From the NCBI GenBank assembly GCA_016288815.1, contig JAEELF010000036.1, positions 42,041 to 106,040 on the forward strand: DNA of 64,000 nt, written 5' to 3'. Below, piece by piece: positions 13,139 to 62,856 of the stretch. Each line of letters starts with the position of its first letter. Position 1 is the stretch's first letter. Source of the stretch: Ruminococcus sp. (lineage in GTDB: Bacteria; Bacillota; Clostridia; Oscillospirales; Ruminococcaceae). Both the position numbers and the translations under genes were made by a program. The notes under the pieces are model-generated. The model was given only the letters and a program-made list of their open reading frames with translations, was not told the origin of the DNA and did not search any database.

Positions 13139-14200
13139 ATGAACGACATCATCGAAAAGCTGTACCTCACCTCCGACCTCACCGACGAGGAGCTGCGTGC
13201 GCTCATCACGGACGAGTCCCCGGAGACTGCCGAGCTCCTGCGCAGAAGAGCCGACGAGGTGCGCCGGCGTGAGTACGGGGAAAAGGTCTTCCTGCGCGGA
13301 CTTATCGAGATCTCCTCCTATTGCAGGAACGACTGTCTGTACTGCGGGATACGCCGCAGCAGCCGCGACGCCGAGCGCTACCGCCTGAGCCGTGAGGACA
13401 TTCTCGCGTGCTGCGAAAACGGCTACGAGCTGGGCTTCCGGACGTTCGTCATGCAGGGCGGCGAGGACCCGCACTTCACCGACGACGTGATGTGCGGCAT
13501 AGTCTCCGAGATACGCGGAAAATACCCCGACTGCGCCATTACGCTCTCCCTCGGAGAGCGCTCGCATGAGAGCTACAAGCGCCTTAAGGACGCTGGCGCG
13601 GACAGATACCTCCTGCGCCACGAGGCTGCGAGCCCGGAGCTCTATGCAAAGCTCCACCCGGCTGAGCTGAGTCTCGAAAACCGCAAGAGATGCCTGTCCG
13701 ACCTGAAGTCGCTCGGATACCAGGTCGGGGCTGGATTCATGGTAGGAGCGCCGTTCCAGACAGTGGACGACCTCATCGCGGATCTGCGCTTTTTGCAGGA
13801 GCTCCGCCCGCAGATGATAGGCATAGGACCATTCATACCCCACCACAGCACACCGTTTTCCGGCGAAAAACCGGGGACTCTCGCCCTCACGCTGCGGCTG
13901 CTCGGGATACTGCGTCTGATGTTCCCGAAGGTGCTGCTCCCCGCGACGACCGCCCTCGGGACTATCGCTCCGAACGGCAGGGAGCTGGGGCTGCAAACGG
14001 GCTGCAACGTCGTGATGCCGAATCTCTCCCCGGTGAGAGTGCGGAAAAAGTACGATCTCTACGACAACAAGATTTGCACAGGCGAGGAAGCGGCTGAGTG
14101 CCGCGGCTGCCTGCAAAGACGAATAGAAGCTGCGGGATATACCGTCGCGTGCGAGCGCGGTGACTGCGCGGACTTTGATACACAAGGAGAATTAAAATGA
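13139..14200 (+). CDS. hydE: HydE-type radical SAM protein ([FeFe] hydrogenase maturase HydE family)
   Basis: Start moved to ATG 13139. FLRGLIEISSYCRNDCLYCGIR (CxxxCxxC), RYRLSREDI, FVMQGGEDP, TALGTIAPNGRELGLQTGCNVVMPNLSP. Confidence 0.85.
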   Translation: MNDIIEKLYLTSDLTDEELRALITDESPETAELLRRRADEVRRREYGEKVFLRGLIEISSYCRNDCLYCGIRRSSRDAERYRLSREDILACCENGYELGFRTFVMQGGEDPHFTDDVMCGIVSEIRGKYPDCAITLSLGERSHESYKRLKDAGADRYLLRHEAASPELYAKLHPAELSLENRKRCLSDLKSLGYQVGAGFMVGAPFQTVDDLIADLRFLQELRPQMIGIGPFIPHHSTPFSGEKPGTLALTLRLLGILRLMFPKVLLPATTALGTIAPNGRELGLQTGCNVVMPNLSPVRVRKKYDLYDNKICTGEEAAECRGCLQRRIEAAGYTVACERGDCADFDTQGELK

Positions 14201-15135
14201 GAGTAAGATTCCACCTCCCCGATTTTTCGGGACATTTCAAGCTCAACCTTATGATGGCGGAAATGCTGAAGAACCGCCCCGACTTCTTCCGCGAGGGCGT
14301 GGAGATAGCCTCCGTCTACGGCGTATTCCCGCCGTGTCTCTGGAACGGCGGCAGACCGCAGGGCGGCTTCTACGACAAGACCTTCATCAAGGGCGCTATC
14401 AAGGCGTTCAACGACCGCGGGATACCGCTCCGCTTCACGTTCACCAACCCCGTCCTCGAGAAGGAGCATCTCTCCGACGAGCGCTGCAACATGATACTCA
14501 ACCTCGCGAACAACGGTCTGAACGAAGCTATCGTGGTGTCGCCGGTGCTCGAGGACTATATCCGCAAGAACTATCCCAAGTACAAGCTCACCAGCTCGAC
14601 CTGCAAGCGCCTTGACGACGCTGAGCGCCTTACCGCCGAGCTCGAGAAGGACTACCACATCGTCGTGGTCGATTACGACCTCAACAATAAGTTCGACATA
14701 CTCGAAAAGCTCCCGCGCAAGAAGGACTGCGAGTTCCTCGCGAATGCCTGCTGTGAGCCGGGCTGCAAGGTCCGCGCAGAGCATTACCGCTCCATCGGCT
14801 ACCAGCAGATAGCCTACTGCGAGCACATAAAGAAGCACCCCGGTCAGCCCTTCGACCTGCCCAAGTACGACCCCAAGGGCTTCTACAAGTGCCAGTACGG
14901 TCAGCGCGGTATCTTCGAGATAAAGGGTCTCAGCACCCACATCTCCCCCGACGATATCTGGGAGAAGTACGTCCCCATGGGCTTCGAGCAGTTCAAGATA
15001 GAGGGCAGGACGGCGAACACCCTCAACGTCCTCGAGACCTATATGTACTACATGGTGAAGCCCGAATGCCGCGACGAGGCGCGCTTTACGATACTCCGCT
15101 CCCTCGAGAAGACCGGCTCGCTGATCTTCAGATAA
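14197..15135 (+). CDS. Uncharacterised Cys-rich protein, U32-peptidase-like (paralog 1)
   Basis: 312 aa; shares most of its length with the next ORF. SSTCKR, NACCEPGCKVRAEHY and GFEQFKIEGRT resemble U32/TIM-barrel family motifs (assignment is inference). Confidence 0.7.
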   Translation: MRVRFHLPDFSGHFKLNLMMAEMLKNRPDFFREGVEIASVYGVFPPCLWNGGRPQGGFYDKTFIKGAIKAFNDRGIPLRFTFTNPVLEKEHLSDERCNMILNLANNGLNEAIVVSPVLEDYIRKNYPKYKLTSSTCKRLDDAERLTAELEKDYHIVVVDYDLNNKFDILEKLPRKKDCEFLANACCEPGCKVRAEHYRSIGYQQIAYCEHIKKHPGQPFDLPKYDPKGFYKCQYGQRGIFEIKGLSTHISPDDIWEKYVPMGFEQFKIEGRTANTLNVLETYMYYMVKPECRDEARFTILRSLEKTGSLIFR

Positions 15136-15147
15136 GCGGAGGAACGC

Positions 15148-16104
15148 ATGAGAGTTAGATTTCATCTGCCGGACTTTTCCTCGCATTTCGAGTTCAATCT
15201 CATATTTGTGGAAATGCTCCGCAACTGCCCGCAGTATTTCCGGGAGGGCGTGGAGATAGCGTCCGTGTACGGCGTGTTCCCGCCGTCGCTCTGGAACGGC
15301 GGACGCTTCCAGACTGGTATCTGCGACAAGAGCTTCATCAGGCAGGTCATAAGTGAATTCAACAAGCGCGATATACCCCTGCGCTTCACGTTCACCAATC
15401 CTGTGCTGGAGAAGAAGCACCTCAGCGATGAGTTCTGCAACATGGTCATGAACCTCGCCAACAACGGCATGAATGAGGCGATAGTCTTCTCGCCGCTGCT
15501 CGAGGACTATATCCGAAAAAACTACCCCAAGTACAAGATAACCAGTTCGACCTGCAAGCGCATAACCGACCCCGGCGTGCTTCGCGGCGAGCTTGAAAAT
15601 GACTACCACATAGTCGTCATCGACTATGACCTCAACAACCGCTTCGACGTGCTGGAGACACTTCCCCGCAAGCAGGACTGCGAGATACTCGTCAACGCCT
15701 GCTGCGAGCCGGACTGTATGCGCCGCTCCGACCACTACCGCGCTATCGGCTACGAGCAGATAGCCTACGCTGACCATGTGCGTAAGTATAAGAATGCGCC
15801 GTTCAATGCGGAAAAGGTCAGACGTGAGCACCCAGAGCTCGTACCCGAGACAGGCTGCGGCTGCATGAGCCGCACGCTCTTCGAGATAAAAGGTCTGCGC
15901 AATCACGTCTCCCCGGACGACATCTGGGAGAAGTACGTCCCCATGGGCTTCGAGCAGTTCAAGATAGAGGGCAGGACGGCAGAACTGTTCAACCTCATCG
16001 AGATGTATATGTACTACATGGTGAAGCCCGAATGCCGCGACGAGGCGCGCTTCGTGCTCATCAGGCAGCTCATGCTGCACGACATTATCAAGATCAACGG
16101 ATAA
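15148..16104 (+). CDS. Uncharacterised Cys-rich protein, U32-peptidase-like (paralog 2)
   Basis: 318 aa; tandem paralog of 14197..15135 (MRVRFHLPDFS, GVEIASVYGVFPP, NACCEPDCMRRSDHY, KYVPMGFEQFKIEGRTA). Confidence 0.7.
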   Translation: MRVRFHLPDFSSHFEFNLIFVEMLRNCPQYFREGVEIASVYGVFPPSLWNGGRFQTGICDKSFIRQVISEFNKRDIPLRFTFTNPVLEKKHLSDEFCNMVMNLANNGMNEAIVFSPLLEDYIRKNYPKYKITSSTCKRITDPGVLRGELENDYHIVVIDYDLNNRFDVLETLPRKQDCEILVNACCEPDCMRRSDHYRAIGYEQIAYADHVRKYKNAPFNAEKVRREHPELVPETGCGCMSRTLFEIKGLRNHVSPDDIWEKYVPMGFEQFKIEGRTAELFNLIEMYMYYMVKPECRDEARFVLIRQLMLHDIIKING

Positions 16105-19009: not shown

Positions 19010-19091
19010 GCCTGCATATTCCGCATGAACGCCGCAGGTGTATAAATGACCGACCTTGGGCGGGGTGATGGGCAGCGTTCCGCAAATCCGT

Positions 19092-19150
19092 AGGGCGCTC
19101 CCTTGTTCCCGTACCGTAAAATGATATTTGTGACCGGTGACGGCCACACG
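19092..19150 (+). repeat. Truncated copy (D) of modular hairpin intergenic repeat
   Basis: GGGCGCTCCCTTGTTCCC...GTGACCGGTGACGGCCACACG resembles the 3' part of the copies at 20597 and 41697. Confidence 0.5.
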
Positions 19151-20596: not shown

Positions 20597-20775
20597 TAAT
20601 GGGATTCCAAAGGGAACCTGTTCCCTTTGGCGGAGTCCAGAGGCAGCACCTCTGGTCGCTTCGCTTTCAGTTTTTAAGGCGAAGCGAAACTATCTGAAAG
20701 GCGCTCTGCAAGAGAGAGCGTCCCCTTGTCGCCACGTTGAATTATATGCCCTGCGACCGGTGACGGTCGCACAGA
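20597..20775 (+). repeat. Modular multi-hairpin intergenic repeat, copy A
   Basis: ATAATGGGATTCCAAAGGGAACCTGTTCCCTTTGGCGGAGTCCAGAGGCAGCACCTCTGGTCGCTTCGC...GCGACCGGTGACGGTCGCAC; near-identical framework at 41697 (+) and about 31750-31967 (-). Confidence 0.85.
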
Positions 20776-30972: not shown

Positions 30973-31653
30973 TCAATACAGGCGGGTCTCACGCACGAAG
31001 GCATCTGCGGCGGCGCGTATCATTTCGTGGCAGGCGGGGACGTAGCCCGCTTTCACGCCGAGCAGCGCGGAAAAAGCCCCGCTTTTTGCGGCGAGCTTGG
31101 CTAAATGCCGCATATCGCGCTCGACGATGCTTGCTGTCGTGCCGTAGCGCTCTGCGACGCGGGTATAGAGTCCGGCTACGAGGTCGGTGAGGAGCTGCGG
31201 CTCGCAGATACACATTTCCGCCGCCGAGCTGAGGAAGTAGAAGCCCTTGTTGCTGGTGGGGAAGCCCTTCCGGGTGAGGAAAGAAGTGAGCTCGAACATG
31301 GAGGGCTCGCTGCCGCGGCGGAGCATTCCTGTGAGCTCGGCACAGACGATGTCAGCGGGAGCCGGCATTACGAAGCATTTAGCTGCTCCGGCGTCGAGGA
31401 GCGCGCGCATATTTTTTTCGGAGGGACTGTACATCAGCACAGCCATCGAAATATCAGGGAATTCTCGTATCATCGAAAGCGCGGGAGAGAGGTCGCAGCC
31501 GACCCCTATGACAGCCGCCCGCCAGCTTTGCTTCAGGACTGTCATGCGGAGCTCTTCCGGAGGGCACAGCCACGGCGCGAACCCTGCGCGGGAGAGCTTT
31601 TCGTTGAGCATACGGCAGAAAAACGACCCGTCGTCGATGACGAGCACCCGCAT
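30973..31653 (-). CDS. Spo0A-like transcriptional regulator with degenerate receiver domain
   Basis: MRVLVIDDG... receiver-like N-terminus; C-terminal KGFYFLSSAAEMCICEPQLLTDLVAGLYTRVAERYGTTASIVERDMRH closely resembles the Spo0A DNA-binding domain. Confidence 0.82.
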   Translation of the reverse strand: MRVLVIDDGSFFCRMLNEKLSRAGFAPWLCPPEELRMTVLKQSWRAAVIGVGCDLSPALSMIREFPDISMAVLMYSPSEKNMRALLDAGAAKCFVMPAPADIVCAELTGMLRRGSEPSMFELTSFLTRKGFPTSNKGFYFLSSAAEMCICEPQLLTDLVAGLYTRVAERYGTTASIVERDMRHLAKLAAKSGAFSALLGVKAGYVPACHEMIRAAADAFVRETRLY

Positions 31654-31749
31654 TATCCCACTGTTGCTGCGTTCGCTGAGCTGCATATGATCCCCTCCTT
31701 TTACAACGATATCTCTATTTTAGCATAATCGTCAGCAAAAAGCAACAGG

Positions 31750-31967
31750 AGTTTTTGTGCGGCATCAGGCGTAGTTGTTTGTGGCAGAAACAAGTAGAAG
31801 CCCTCTCTTGCAGGGCTTCTCCTCTTTCAAAACAGTCCACCGGACTGTTTTGAAATTCACCTCTTGCGGATAGCTTTCGTATATGCAGGGCTCTGCCCTG
31901 CAACTGCCAGAGGCTCTGCCTCTGGACTCCGCCAAAGGGGCAGTCGCCCCTTTGGAATCCCATTTCC
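31750..31967 (-). repeat. Modular multi-hairpin intergenic repeat, copy C (inverted relative to A and B)
   Basis: Minus strand: ATGGGATTCCAAAGGGGCGACTGCCCCTTTGGCGGAGTCCAGAGGCAGAGCCTCTGG...TTTCAAAACAGTCCGGTGGACTGTTTTGAAAGAGGAGAAGCCCTGCAAGAGAGGGCTTCTACTTG. Confidence 0.85.
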
Positions 31968-32077: not shown

Positions 32078-33196
32078 ATGATAATTCTTGATGAACTCAG
32101 GGTCGAGATGACCGGCTACCGCAAGGAAATGACCGAGCTTGCGGATGTGCTCAACATAAAAGCTGCGAAGGCACGCGTTGCCGAGCTCGGCGAAGAGACC
32201 GCAAAGGACGGCTTCTGGGACGACCTCGAGAACTCTCAGGCTGTGCTCAAGGAGCAGAAGTCCCTCGAAAAGAAGATAGACAAATACAATAAGCTCAACG
32301 ACACCCTCGAGGATCTCATCACCCTCATCGAGCTCTCTATCGAGGAGGACGACGACAGCTCCGTTGATGAGATAAAGGCAGAGGCAGAGTCCTTCAAGGC
32401 AAAGCTCGAGGAGGAGAAGCTCTCCACGCTGCTCACCGGTGAGTACGATTCCTCGAACGCTATCCTCACCTTCCACGCCGGCGCAGGCGGTACGGAGGCT
32501 CAGGACTGGGCTGAGATGCTCTACAGAATGTACAACCACTGGGCAGAGCGTCACGACTACAAGGTCGAGCTGCTCGACTACCTCGACGGTGATGAAGCGG
32601 GCATGAAGTCTGCAACTATCCTCATCGAGGGCGACAACGCCTACGGCTACATGAAGTCGGAGTCCGGCGTACACAGACTTGTCCGCATTTCCCCGTTCGA
32701 CGCTTCCGGCAGACGTCACACGTCGTTCGCAGCGCTCGAGGTAATGCCCGAGATCGACGATTCGATAGAGGTCGATATCCGCCCTGAGGACATCGAAATG
32801 GAGGTTTACCGCTCCAGCGGCGCAGGCGGTCAGAAGGTAAACAAGACCAGCTCGGCGGTACGTCTTATCCATAAGCCGACGGGTATCGTGGTCTCGTGCC
32901 AGACCCAGCGCAGCCAGTACCAGAACAAGGACTACGCCATGAAAATGCTCCGCTCGAAGCTCATCGAGATCAAGGAGCGCGAGCACCTCGAGAAGATCGA
33001 GGACATCAAGGGCGTGCAGAACCAGATCGCATGGGGCTCGCAGATACGCTCGTATGTGTTCATGCCGTATACCCTCGCTAAGGACCACAGAACAGGCTTC
33101 GAGAACGGCAATATACAGGCAGTTATGGACGGCGACATCGACGGCTTCATCAACGCTTACCTGAAGTCCCTCTCGCACGGTACACTTGAGAAATAA
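32078..33196 (+). CDS. prfB: Peptide chain release factor 2 (no programmed frameshift in this copy)
   Basis: 372 aa single frame; RF2 SPF motif (VRISPFDASGRRHTSFA) and GGQ (SSGAGGQKVNKTSSAVRL). Confidence 0.95.
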   Translation: MIILDELRVEMTGYRKEMTELADVLNIKAAKARVAELGEETAKDGFWDDLENSQAVLKEQKSLEKKIDKYNKLNDTLEDLITLIELSIEEDDDSSVDEIKAEAESFKAKLEEEKLSTLLTGEYDSSNAILTFHAGAGGTEAQDWAEMLYRMYNHWAERHDYKVELLDYLDGDEAGMKSATILIEGDNAYGYMKSESGVHRLVRISPFDASGRRHTSFAALEVMPEIDDSIEVDIRPEDIEMEVYRSSGAGGQKVNKTSSAVRLIHKPTGIVVSCQTQRSQYQNKDYAMKMLRSKLIEIKEREHLEKIEDIKGVQNQIAWGSQIRSYVFMPYTLAKDHRTGFENGNIQAVMDGDIDGFINAYLKSLSHGTLEK

Positions 33197-41689: not shown

Positions 41690-41940
41690 CGCGGAATAAT
41701 GGGATTCCAAAGGGGCGACTGTCCCTTTGGCGGAGTCCAGAGGCAGCGCCTCTGGTCGCTTCGCTTTCAGCTTTCAAGGCGAAGCGAAATAAAACCGAAG
41801 GGCGCTCCGCAAGAGGTGAATTCAAAAACGATCCAGTGAATCGTTTTTGAGGAGGAGACGCCCTGCAAGAGAGGGCGTCTCCTTGTCGCCTCAACGTGAA
41901 AACAATCCCTGCGACCGGTGACGGCCGCACGAAAACGGGA
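41689..41940 (+). repeat. Modular multi-hairpin intergenic repeat, copy B
   Basis: ATAATGGGATTCCAAAGGGGCGACTGTCCCTTTGGCGGAGTCCAGAGGCAGCGCCTCTGGTCGCTTCGC...TTCAAAAACGATCCAGTGAATCGTTTTTGA...GCGACCGGTGACGGCCGCAC. Confidence 0.85.
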
Positions 41941-41967
41941 CGCCGATGACGCTGTCCCCTACAAAAA

Positions 41968-44118: not shown

Positions 44119-44120
44119 AC

Positions 44121-44150
44121 AAAAAGGACGGTCAGTGACCGTCCTTTTTT
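44121..44150 (+). terminator. Intrinsic terminator after psd
   Basis: AAAAAGGACGGTCAGTGACCGTCCTTTTTT. Confidence 0.8.
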
Positions 44151-44287
44151 AGGTGTCAAGTATCAGGTTTCAGGTCTTAGGTGTAGGGGTCGATGCCTAC
44201 ATCGACCCGCTATTTCTGTGCGGGACCAATTGGCGGGCGGGCGCCGGGGCGACGCCCCTACACCCTGACACCTGACCCCTGTTACCT
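44149..44287. repeat. Heptanucleotide (TCAGGTN) element with inverted arms
   Basis: TTAGGTG-TCAAGTA-TCAGGTT-TCAGGTC-TTAGGTG (44149-44183), central hairpin GGGTCGATGCCTACATCGACCC, then inverted heptads to 44287. Confidence 0.8.
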
Positions 44288-50367: not shown

Positions 50368-50397
50368 AAAAAAAGACGGCTTATGCCGTCTTTTTTA
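50368..50397 (+). terminator. Intrinsic terminator after NatB-like permease
   Basis: AAAAAAAGACGGCTTATGCCGTCTTTTTT. Confidence 0.75.
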
Positions 50398-50439
50398 TTA
50401 GGTGTCAGGTGTTAGATATCAGGCTTCAGGTGTCAGGGC
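50398..50439. repeat. Heptanucleotide array, six tandem units
   Basis: TTAGGTG-TCAGGTG-TTAGATA-TCAGGCT-TCAGGTG-TCAGGGC, directly after the terminator. Confidence 0.8.
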
Positions 50440-62736: not shown

Positions 62737-62768
62737 CAAAAAAGACGACCCGTAGGGCCGTCTTTTTT
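62737..62768 (+). terminator. Intrinsic terminator after the large ABC operon
   Basis: AAAAAAGACGACCCGTAGGGCCGTCTTTTTT (imperfect stem). Confidence 0.7.
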
Positions 62769-62769
62769 G

Positions 62770-62856
62770 TCAGGTGTCAGGTTTTAGGTTTCAGGGCGTA
62801 GGGGTCGATGCCTACACGATTTTCCTGACACCTGATCCCTGACCCCTGATACCTAA
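62770..62856. repeat. Heptanucleotide element with inverted arms
   Basis: TCAGGTG-TCAGGTT-TTAGGTT-TCAGGGC, GTAGGGGTCGATGCCTACACGA, then CCTGACACCTGATCCCTGACCCCTGATACCTAA. Confidence 0.8.

Follow-up and report, generated by a model that had tools for sequence, protein, structure and literature searches.

The stretch of Ruminococcus sp. DNA analysed here (64,000 nucleotides, hereafter the window) carries, only 1 nt past the stop codon of cysS, a run of hairpins whose arms differ from those of related copies while their pairing is kept, which raises the question of whether a structured RNA or a DNA element resides at this locus. The first-pass annotation had named four loci with a common framework of hairpins, and all four are indeed present and matched, without filtering, by a covariance model (R1) that covers the 3′ half of the element and was built from sixteen 3′ halves of the same genome that included copy B and left out copies A, C and D.

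20597-20775, + strand: copy A, with H1 at 20607-20630, H2 at 20637-20655, H3 (type R) at 20656-20688, H5 at about 20700-20722 and H6 at 20753-20770; R1 match at 20658-20773 (+), 56.9 bits.
41697-41933, + strand: copy B, the complete form with six hairpins, H1-H6; R1 match at 41804-41931 (+), 137.7 bits, copy B itself being part of the R1 build.
41934-41966, + strand: flanking GGGACGCCGATGACGCTGTCCCCTACAAAA module, placed by sequence against L194-L210 and similar to the module at the right end of the ND2009 MITE described below.
31750-31967, − strand: copy C, with H1, H2, H3 (type T), H4 and H5, diverged in the H6 region; R1 match at 31756-31872 (−), 92.1 bits.
19029-19150, + strand: copy D, a decayed remnant with an H3-like stretch and an H6-like GTGACCGGTGACGGCCAC, which has lost H1, H2, H4 and H5; R1 match at 19029-19150 (+), 38.2 bits, E=3e-7.

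The element as a whole is about 180-240 bp long and consists of up to six hairpin modules between a 5′ edge, (C)AATGGGATTCC, and a 3′ edge, ...TGCGACCGGTGACGGTCGCACG.

H1: CCAAAGGG..CCCTTTGG.
H2: CCAGAGGCAGNGCCTCTGG.
H3: at least three versions (R, S and T).
H4: AAACAGTCCGGTGGACTGTTT or AAACGATCCAGTGAATCGTTT; the outer arms vary.
H5: GGGACGC..GCGTCCC.
H6: GCGACC..GGTCGC.

The hairpins quoted in the first-pass annotation are present letter for letter, including the arm pair AAC/GTT in copy A versus GGC/GCC in copy C and the third-hairpin arms TCGCTTCGC/GCGAAGCGA in copies A and B versus TGCAGGGC/GCCCTGCA in copy C. A second model, covering H1 and H2 (R2), matches copies A and C with 83.5 and 88.6 bits, respectively, and the predicted folds of copies B and A are far more stable than those of dinucleotide shuffles (z=-9.4 and z=-4.8, with none of 200 shuffles as good). 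Copy A lacks the H4 that is present in most other copies and is hence not the full form; the loss would be consistent with a deletion between flanking GCGCTCTGCAAG-type repeats. Copy D overlaps the repeat family D18. The open reading frames that cross the copies are short and were judged spurious.

The window lies on contig C49 of a 2.33-Mb draft genome of 69 contigs (G000), where the element is abundant. The H1 pattern has 15 exact matches in this genome compared to none for the reversed control, which shows that the family does not arise by chance; a blastn search with the 3′ half gave 43 matches, and the covariance-model scan returned 47 matches for R1 and 60 for R2, about 10 of the latter belonging to a second, mirror-symmetric element. 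In that palindromic element the H1 hairpin is used twice, once on each side; its ends are GTCTGCGACGCATTAAAAATG...TTTTTAATGCGTCGCAGAC, its central hairpin is ATCCCATGCCGT..ACGGCATGGGAT, and it is seen at L332 (G000:C29:28030-28340), L333 and L336 and at contig ends of C26, C27, C40 and C65. Contig ends of the assembly often fall inside copies of the main element as well, for example at C1:1-59, C7:1, C19:1, C9:9 and the ends of C18, C58 and C66. Among the sampled genomes of Ruminococcus species, 37 of 60 have R1 matches, with a maximum of 58 copies per genome, and 23 have none at the threshold used. Outside the genus the family is patchy, with at least 8 of 149 genomes of the order matched (G000 included); a sister genus and certain genomes from other families are represented. 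The family is therefore not limited to a few recent duplications. The core pattern occurs in named records labelled Ruminococcus, R. flavefaciens, uncultured Clostridia and similar, and in one labelled Alistipes; this last metagenome-assembled genome (JAMPAJ010000001.1, loci L114 and L129), which carries the Ruminococcus element, is probably a mislabelled bin. The family has no match in phage or plasmid sequences, and an origin from either was rejected on that ground; a literature search found no description of it.

Two further kinds of repeats were observed in the window. Tandem repeats of a 7-nt unit (AGGTGTC/AGGTATC) directly follow terminator-like AAAAGACGG..CCGTCTTTT hairpins at 44119-44184, 50368-50437 and 62740-62854, and also adjoin some element copies on other contigs. 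Two diverged, gene-sized tandem duplications lie at 14197-16052, with stretches 74-89% identical at a spacing of about 950-966.

The cassette-like exchange of modules proposed earlier is evident throughout the genome. Every combination of H3 (R/S/T) with H4 (CAG/CGA) and of H4 with H5 (GGG/GAG) is found among the copies, and several H1 tips each occur with both H4 types. Visible deletions fuse H2 to H3 at a shared GGCAGNGCC loop (C39, C49:12434 and C64) or H1 to H2 (C46:6882 and C65), and insertion has added whole extra hairpins to L006, L340 and the copy at C49:12434. An insertable module, TGACTCCC..GGGAGATGTCAGCG.AGCTGACAGAGGG, recurs in or beside elements of several species (L006, L340, L199 and L066). 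At L061 and L074 the element is located between inverted CTCAG..TGTC..AAAAA / CTCAG..TGTCAAAAA repeats, beside duplicated copies of a terminator hairpin. Such free recombination of modules, with homology supplied by the shared linkers and loops and with the deletions at the GGCAGNGCC loops as its visible products, is what would be expected if ectopic gene conversion between copies swapped whole hairpins and no special arm-copying process existed. Conversion, however, redistributes existing arms and does not make new perfect ones, whereas many distinct perfect variants exist: the H1 tips TCGA, TACC, ATTA, GCGA, AACC and ACGA are all perfect, and the outer arms of H4 show four pair types at one position. 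Likewise, among the H1/H2 hybrid hairpins, the perfected form outnumbers the mismatched (A.C) form, exemplified by CCAAAGGCAGCGCCTCTGG, by 14 to 2. Block replacement as the whole explanation therefore appears rather doubtful.

Further evidence comes from how the arms change. The covariation score of H4-H6 is 0.387 compared to 0.122 ± 0.004 for shuffled alignments and at most 0.10 for slid structures, and that of H1-H2 is 0.501 compared to 0.142 for shuffled ones; both scores exceed all 500 shuffles and every slid structure. Two caveats apply: some of the relatives were collected with a pattern in which part of H4 is fixed, and fitting an alignment to a model favours pairing. The compensatory arm changes noted earlier thus stand far above chance, and the arms do not mutate independently. 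One interpretation of such a pattern would be a structured RNA, transcribed in 3′ untranslated regions or between cistrons and selected for its fold as an mRNA stabiliser, a processed small RNA or a terminator, with pairing in the RNA driving the compensatory changes; the very stable folds and the strong covariation are both in line with this. RNA stems usually tolerate G-U pairs, and SRP RNA from genomes of the same genus was chosen as a control for that reason. In the element, G-U occupies 55 of 3916 alignment cells (1.4%) and A-C 28, whereas in SRP RNA the corresponding numbers are 70 (13.9%) and 3 of 504 cells, and in tRNA stems, a small control of 96 cells, 9 and 0; cells are not independent events in any of these counts. 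One-sided changes number 45 and two-sided ones 707 in the element, against 13 and 5 in SRP RNA (Fisher p=4e-12), and 407 of the 697 double changes from one Watson-Crick pair to another are transversional and unable to pass through G-U, which leaves them without a tolerated intermediate. The 5′ hairpins do have more G-U than A-C cells (20:3), with 12-13 of the G-U cells derived from a single column.

The covariation is therefore of a DNA-like type. The rarity of G-U together with the excess of two-sided and often transversional changes points to copying of one arm onto the other at the level of DNA, and the selection on structure claimed in the first-pass annotation, if meant in the sense of RNA, is not borne out. 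Covariation with G-U tolerated on the transcribed strand, as an Rfam-type family would display, is not what is seen here (G-U 1.4%, G-U:A-C 55:28). In addition, the window has no Rfam match at the gathering threshold, and L012 and L020 at E<1 gave only chance-level matches. The + strand of copy B is also devoid of a consensus terminator, and a terminator function was rejected for this reason. Template switching is a described route to perfect stems and to instantaneous compensatory changes, and according to reported patterns in RNA genes it gives rise to hairpins and preserves them (PMC8794818). Since each module of the element is an inverted repeat, template switching during replication could copy one arm onto the other, by which a mutation in one arm would be either mirrored or erased.

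The genomic position of the copies is likewise uneven. In the relatives, a crude ORF caller identified both flanking genes for 78 copies, of which 32 have a convergent and 8 a divergent context; where the genes are co-directional, the copy is in sense in 25 cases and in antisense in 13. Of the remaining gaps between genes at these loci, 29 are convergent and 41 divergent (32:8 against 29:41, Fisher p=1e-4). When relatives and own genome are pooled, co-directional contexts favour sense over antisense by 36:16 (p=0.008). Copies thus accumulate at the 3′ ends of genes, and the earlier statement that they lie just after coding genes holds for copies A, B and D and as a statistical tendency, but not for copy C, which is placed between divergent genes, one of them partially matching Spo0A (30973-31686, −) and the other being prfB (32078-33196, +). 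The convergent bias matches that reported for BOX, RUP and SPRITE, where it was interpreted as tolerance of parasitic insertions (PMC3049150), and insertions of the present element might similarly persist chiefly downstream of genes because they would be least harmful there. The bias towards gene 3′ ends and the sense orientation would also suit a structured RNA, and the latter counts against a purely selfish DNA element, which has no need of it.

The copies are, moreover, inconstant in their presence. Eleven related species in an alignment have the two genes that flank copy B next to each other with no element in between (L255, misplaced in that alignment, was disregarded), and a copy between two genes that we take from their protein sequences to be rimM and trmD is found in the own genome only among the genomes compared, being absent in G004, G009 and G020. 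Relatives with the same gene junctions minus the element indicate that the elements are mobile. The absence of copies from these orthologous junctions, and from 23 of the 60 genomes of the genus, adds to the base-pair signature in speaking against a structured RNA, which is accordingly considered unlikely.

Another form of the element occurs in R. flavefaciens ND2009 (G047), in which at least ten near-identical copies of the core lie within a non-coding unit of about 300 bp at unrelated sites. The unit has perfect 13-bp terminal inverted repeats (TIRs), AAATCATAATTTA, and the copies inspected are bordered by TA at the right end in 11 of 11 and at the left end in 9 of 11 cases; in G006 and G010 the orthologous regions lack the unit, but their divergence is too great for a target duplication to be proven. 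The hairpin core is thus able to ride in a TIR-bounded MITE, as seen in this relative only. Being shorter than 600 bp, non-coding and multi-copy, the element resembles MITEs in general; it spans 180-300 bp and has 47-60 matches in the own genome. The own genome, in contrast, has no match of the ND2009 TIR TAAATCATAATTTA, and inspection by eye revealed neither TIRs nor target duplications around its copies. In G043, G045, G047 and G034 the same TIR bounds cargo whose length varies between a few bp and some 480 bp, which, together with its absence from G000, implies that core and ends are separable. The TAAATCATAATTTA frame behaves as if its ends were mobile independently of the cargo carried.

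Among the exact TIR matches listed in G047, G034 and G043 there is no pair at transposase-sized spacing, and an autonomous partner sharing the ND2009 TIR was rejected, as no unit of such size was seen. Neither the ND2009 MITE nor the own-genome copies could be linked to a partner transposase; because no cognate transposase with the same ends was found, the claim of kinship with MITEs is confined to the ND2009 form. On contig C11, two copies in inverted orientation were considered as a composite transposon; this was rejected, since dnaJ lies inside, and two separate insertions are assumed instead. A RAYT-like protein, suggested earlier as a possible linked gene, was looked for and not found. 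Movement as a REP/BIME-type element by a hairpin-recognising RAYT/Y1 (HUH) transposase would agree with the palindromes near both ends, with the own-genome copies having no visible target duplication, and with the occurrence of Y1 proteins in 23 of the 60 genomes of the genus. Nevertheless, there are no Y1 (PF01797) matches in the own genome or in the copy-rich G017, G043 and G047, and the copies that were apparently mobile most recently have TIRs at their ends, a feature foreign to Y1 elements. A link to RAYT/Y1 was rejected, given its absence from the own genome and a presence not tied to copy number, and such an origin is highly improbable.

Taken together, the family is dispersed, mosaic, non-coding and palindromic, and present or absent at orthologous gene junctions. 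The element is probably a non-autonomous, palindrome-rich mobile repeat with interchangeable hairpins that is moved in trans and whose arms are kept by template switching. Transposases acting in trans would move it, and whole modules would be shuffled and lost through recombination between copies and through deletions where short sequences are shared, as in the GGCAGNGCC loops of H2 and H3 or the GCTCTGCAAG repeats around H4. Where the element is transcribed as part of a 3′ untranslated region, effects on the transcript would be secondary, and the data can be explained without an RNA-level function. Besides the sense orientation, the partner transposase and own-genome target duplications not found and the G-U:A-C ratio of the 5′ hairpins (20:3) count against this explanation, as do the caveats on cell counts, choice of relatives and model-fitted alignments given above. 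A bolder proposal, plausible though held only tentatively, is that the copies represent a natural population of DNA hairpins in which template switching and not selection keeps the arms, the modules swap, fuse and are re-perfected, and the ends of unrelated transposons provide for the spread.

Covariation is routinely accepted as proof of a functional RNA. If the template-switching reading is true, classical "compensatory" covariation arises without one. The family, being abundant and easily aligned, with extreme covariation that lacks the G-U signature of RNA and for which the same genomes supply a control RNA, makes both a test case for the maintenance of palindromes by template switching and a warning to automated RNA discovery in Clostridia. 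On the practical side, many contig breaks in Ruminococcus assemblies are explained by the repeat, as are short spurious ORFs, and its copies are usable as position markers for strain typing of rumen and gut species.

Of the known systems, the BOX elements of Streptococcus pneumoniae, described with RUP and SPRITE (PMC3049150), are similar in being modular, with optional middle modules, stable folds and tens of copies per genome, and in being over-represented between convergent genes, nested or clustered with other repeats and without a transposase of their own. The likeness is one of organisation only, as no boxA, boxB or boxC sequence was recognised in an informal comparison; the host belongs to Oscillospirales, and instead of a tandem boxB array the present element has as many as six distinct hairpins, which exist in alternative versions. 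MITEs, such as the RUP/IS630-type and Correia elements, resemble the ND2009 unit in its multi-copy, TIR-bounded form of about 300 bp, most copies of which have TA on either side, and share the element-free orthologous sites in relatives, as at the copy B and rimM-trmD junctions, but the own-genome copies differ from them in having neither the ND2009 TIR nor a visible target duplication, and no partner transposase is known. The structured repeats of the Bacillus cereus group, bcr1 among them, are likewise short, chromosomal, stably folded and proposed to be mobile, and the present element differs from bcr1 in sequence, in host and in being a multi-hairpin mosaic. REP/BIME sequences with RAYT transposases (PMC3733652, PMC2817692) are extragenic palindromes, likewise arranged in composites, while the own genome has no Y1 protein, and no GTAG/CGTC tag was seen by eye at the foot of the hairpins. 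The survey of stem-loop repeat families in 40 genomes by Cozzuto et al. (PMC2267715) describes the general class into which the element falls, that of repeated intergenic stem-loops, many of them without known function. Within that landscape, the element is best filed as a new family of non-autonomous modular palindromic repeats, BOX- and MITE-like in its working and claimed as a member of neither.
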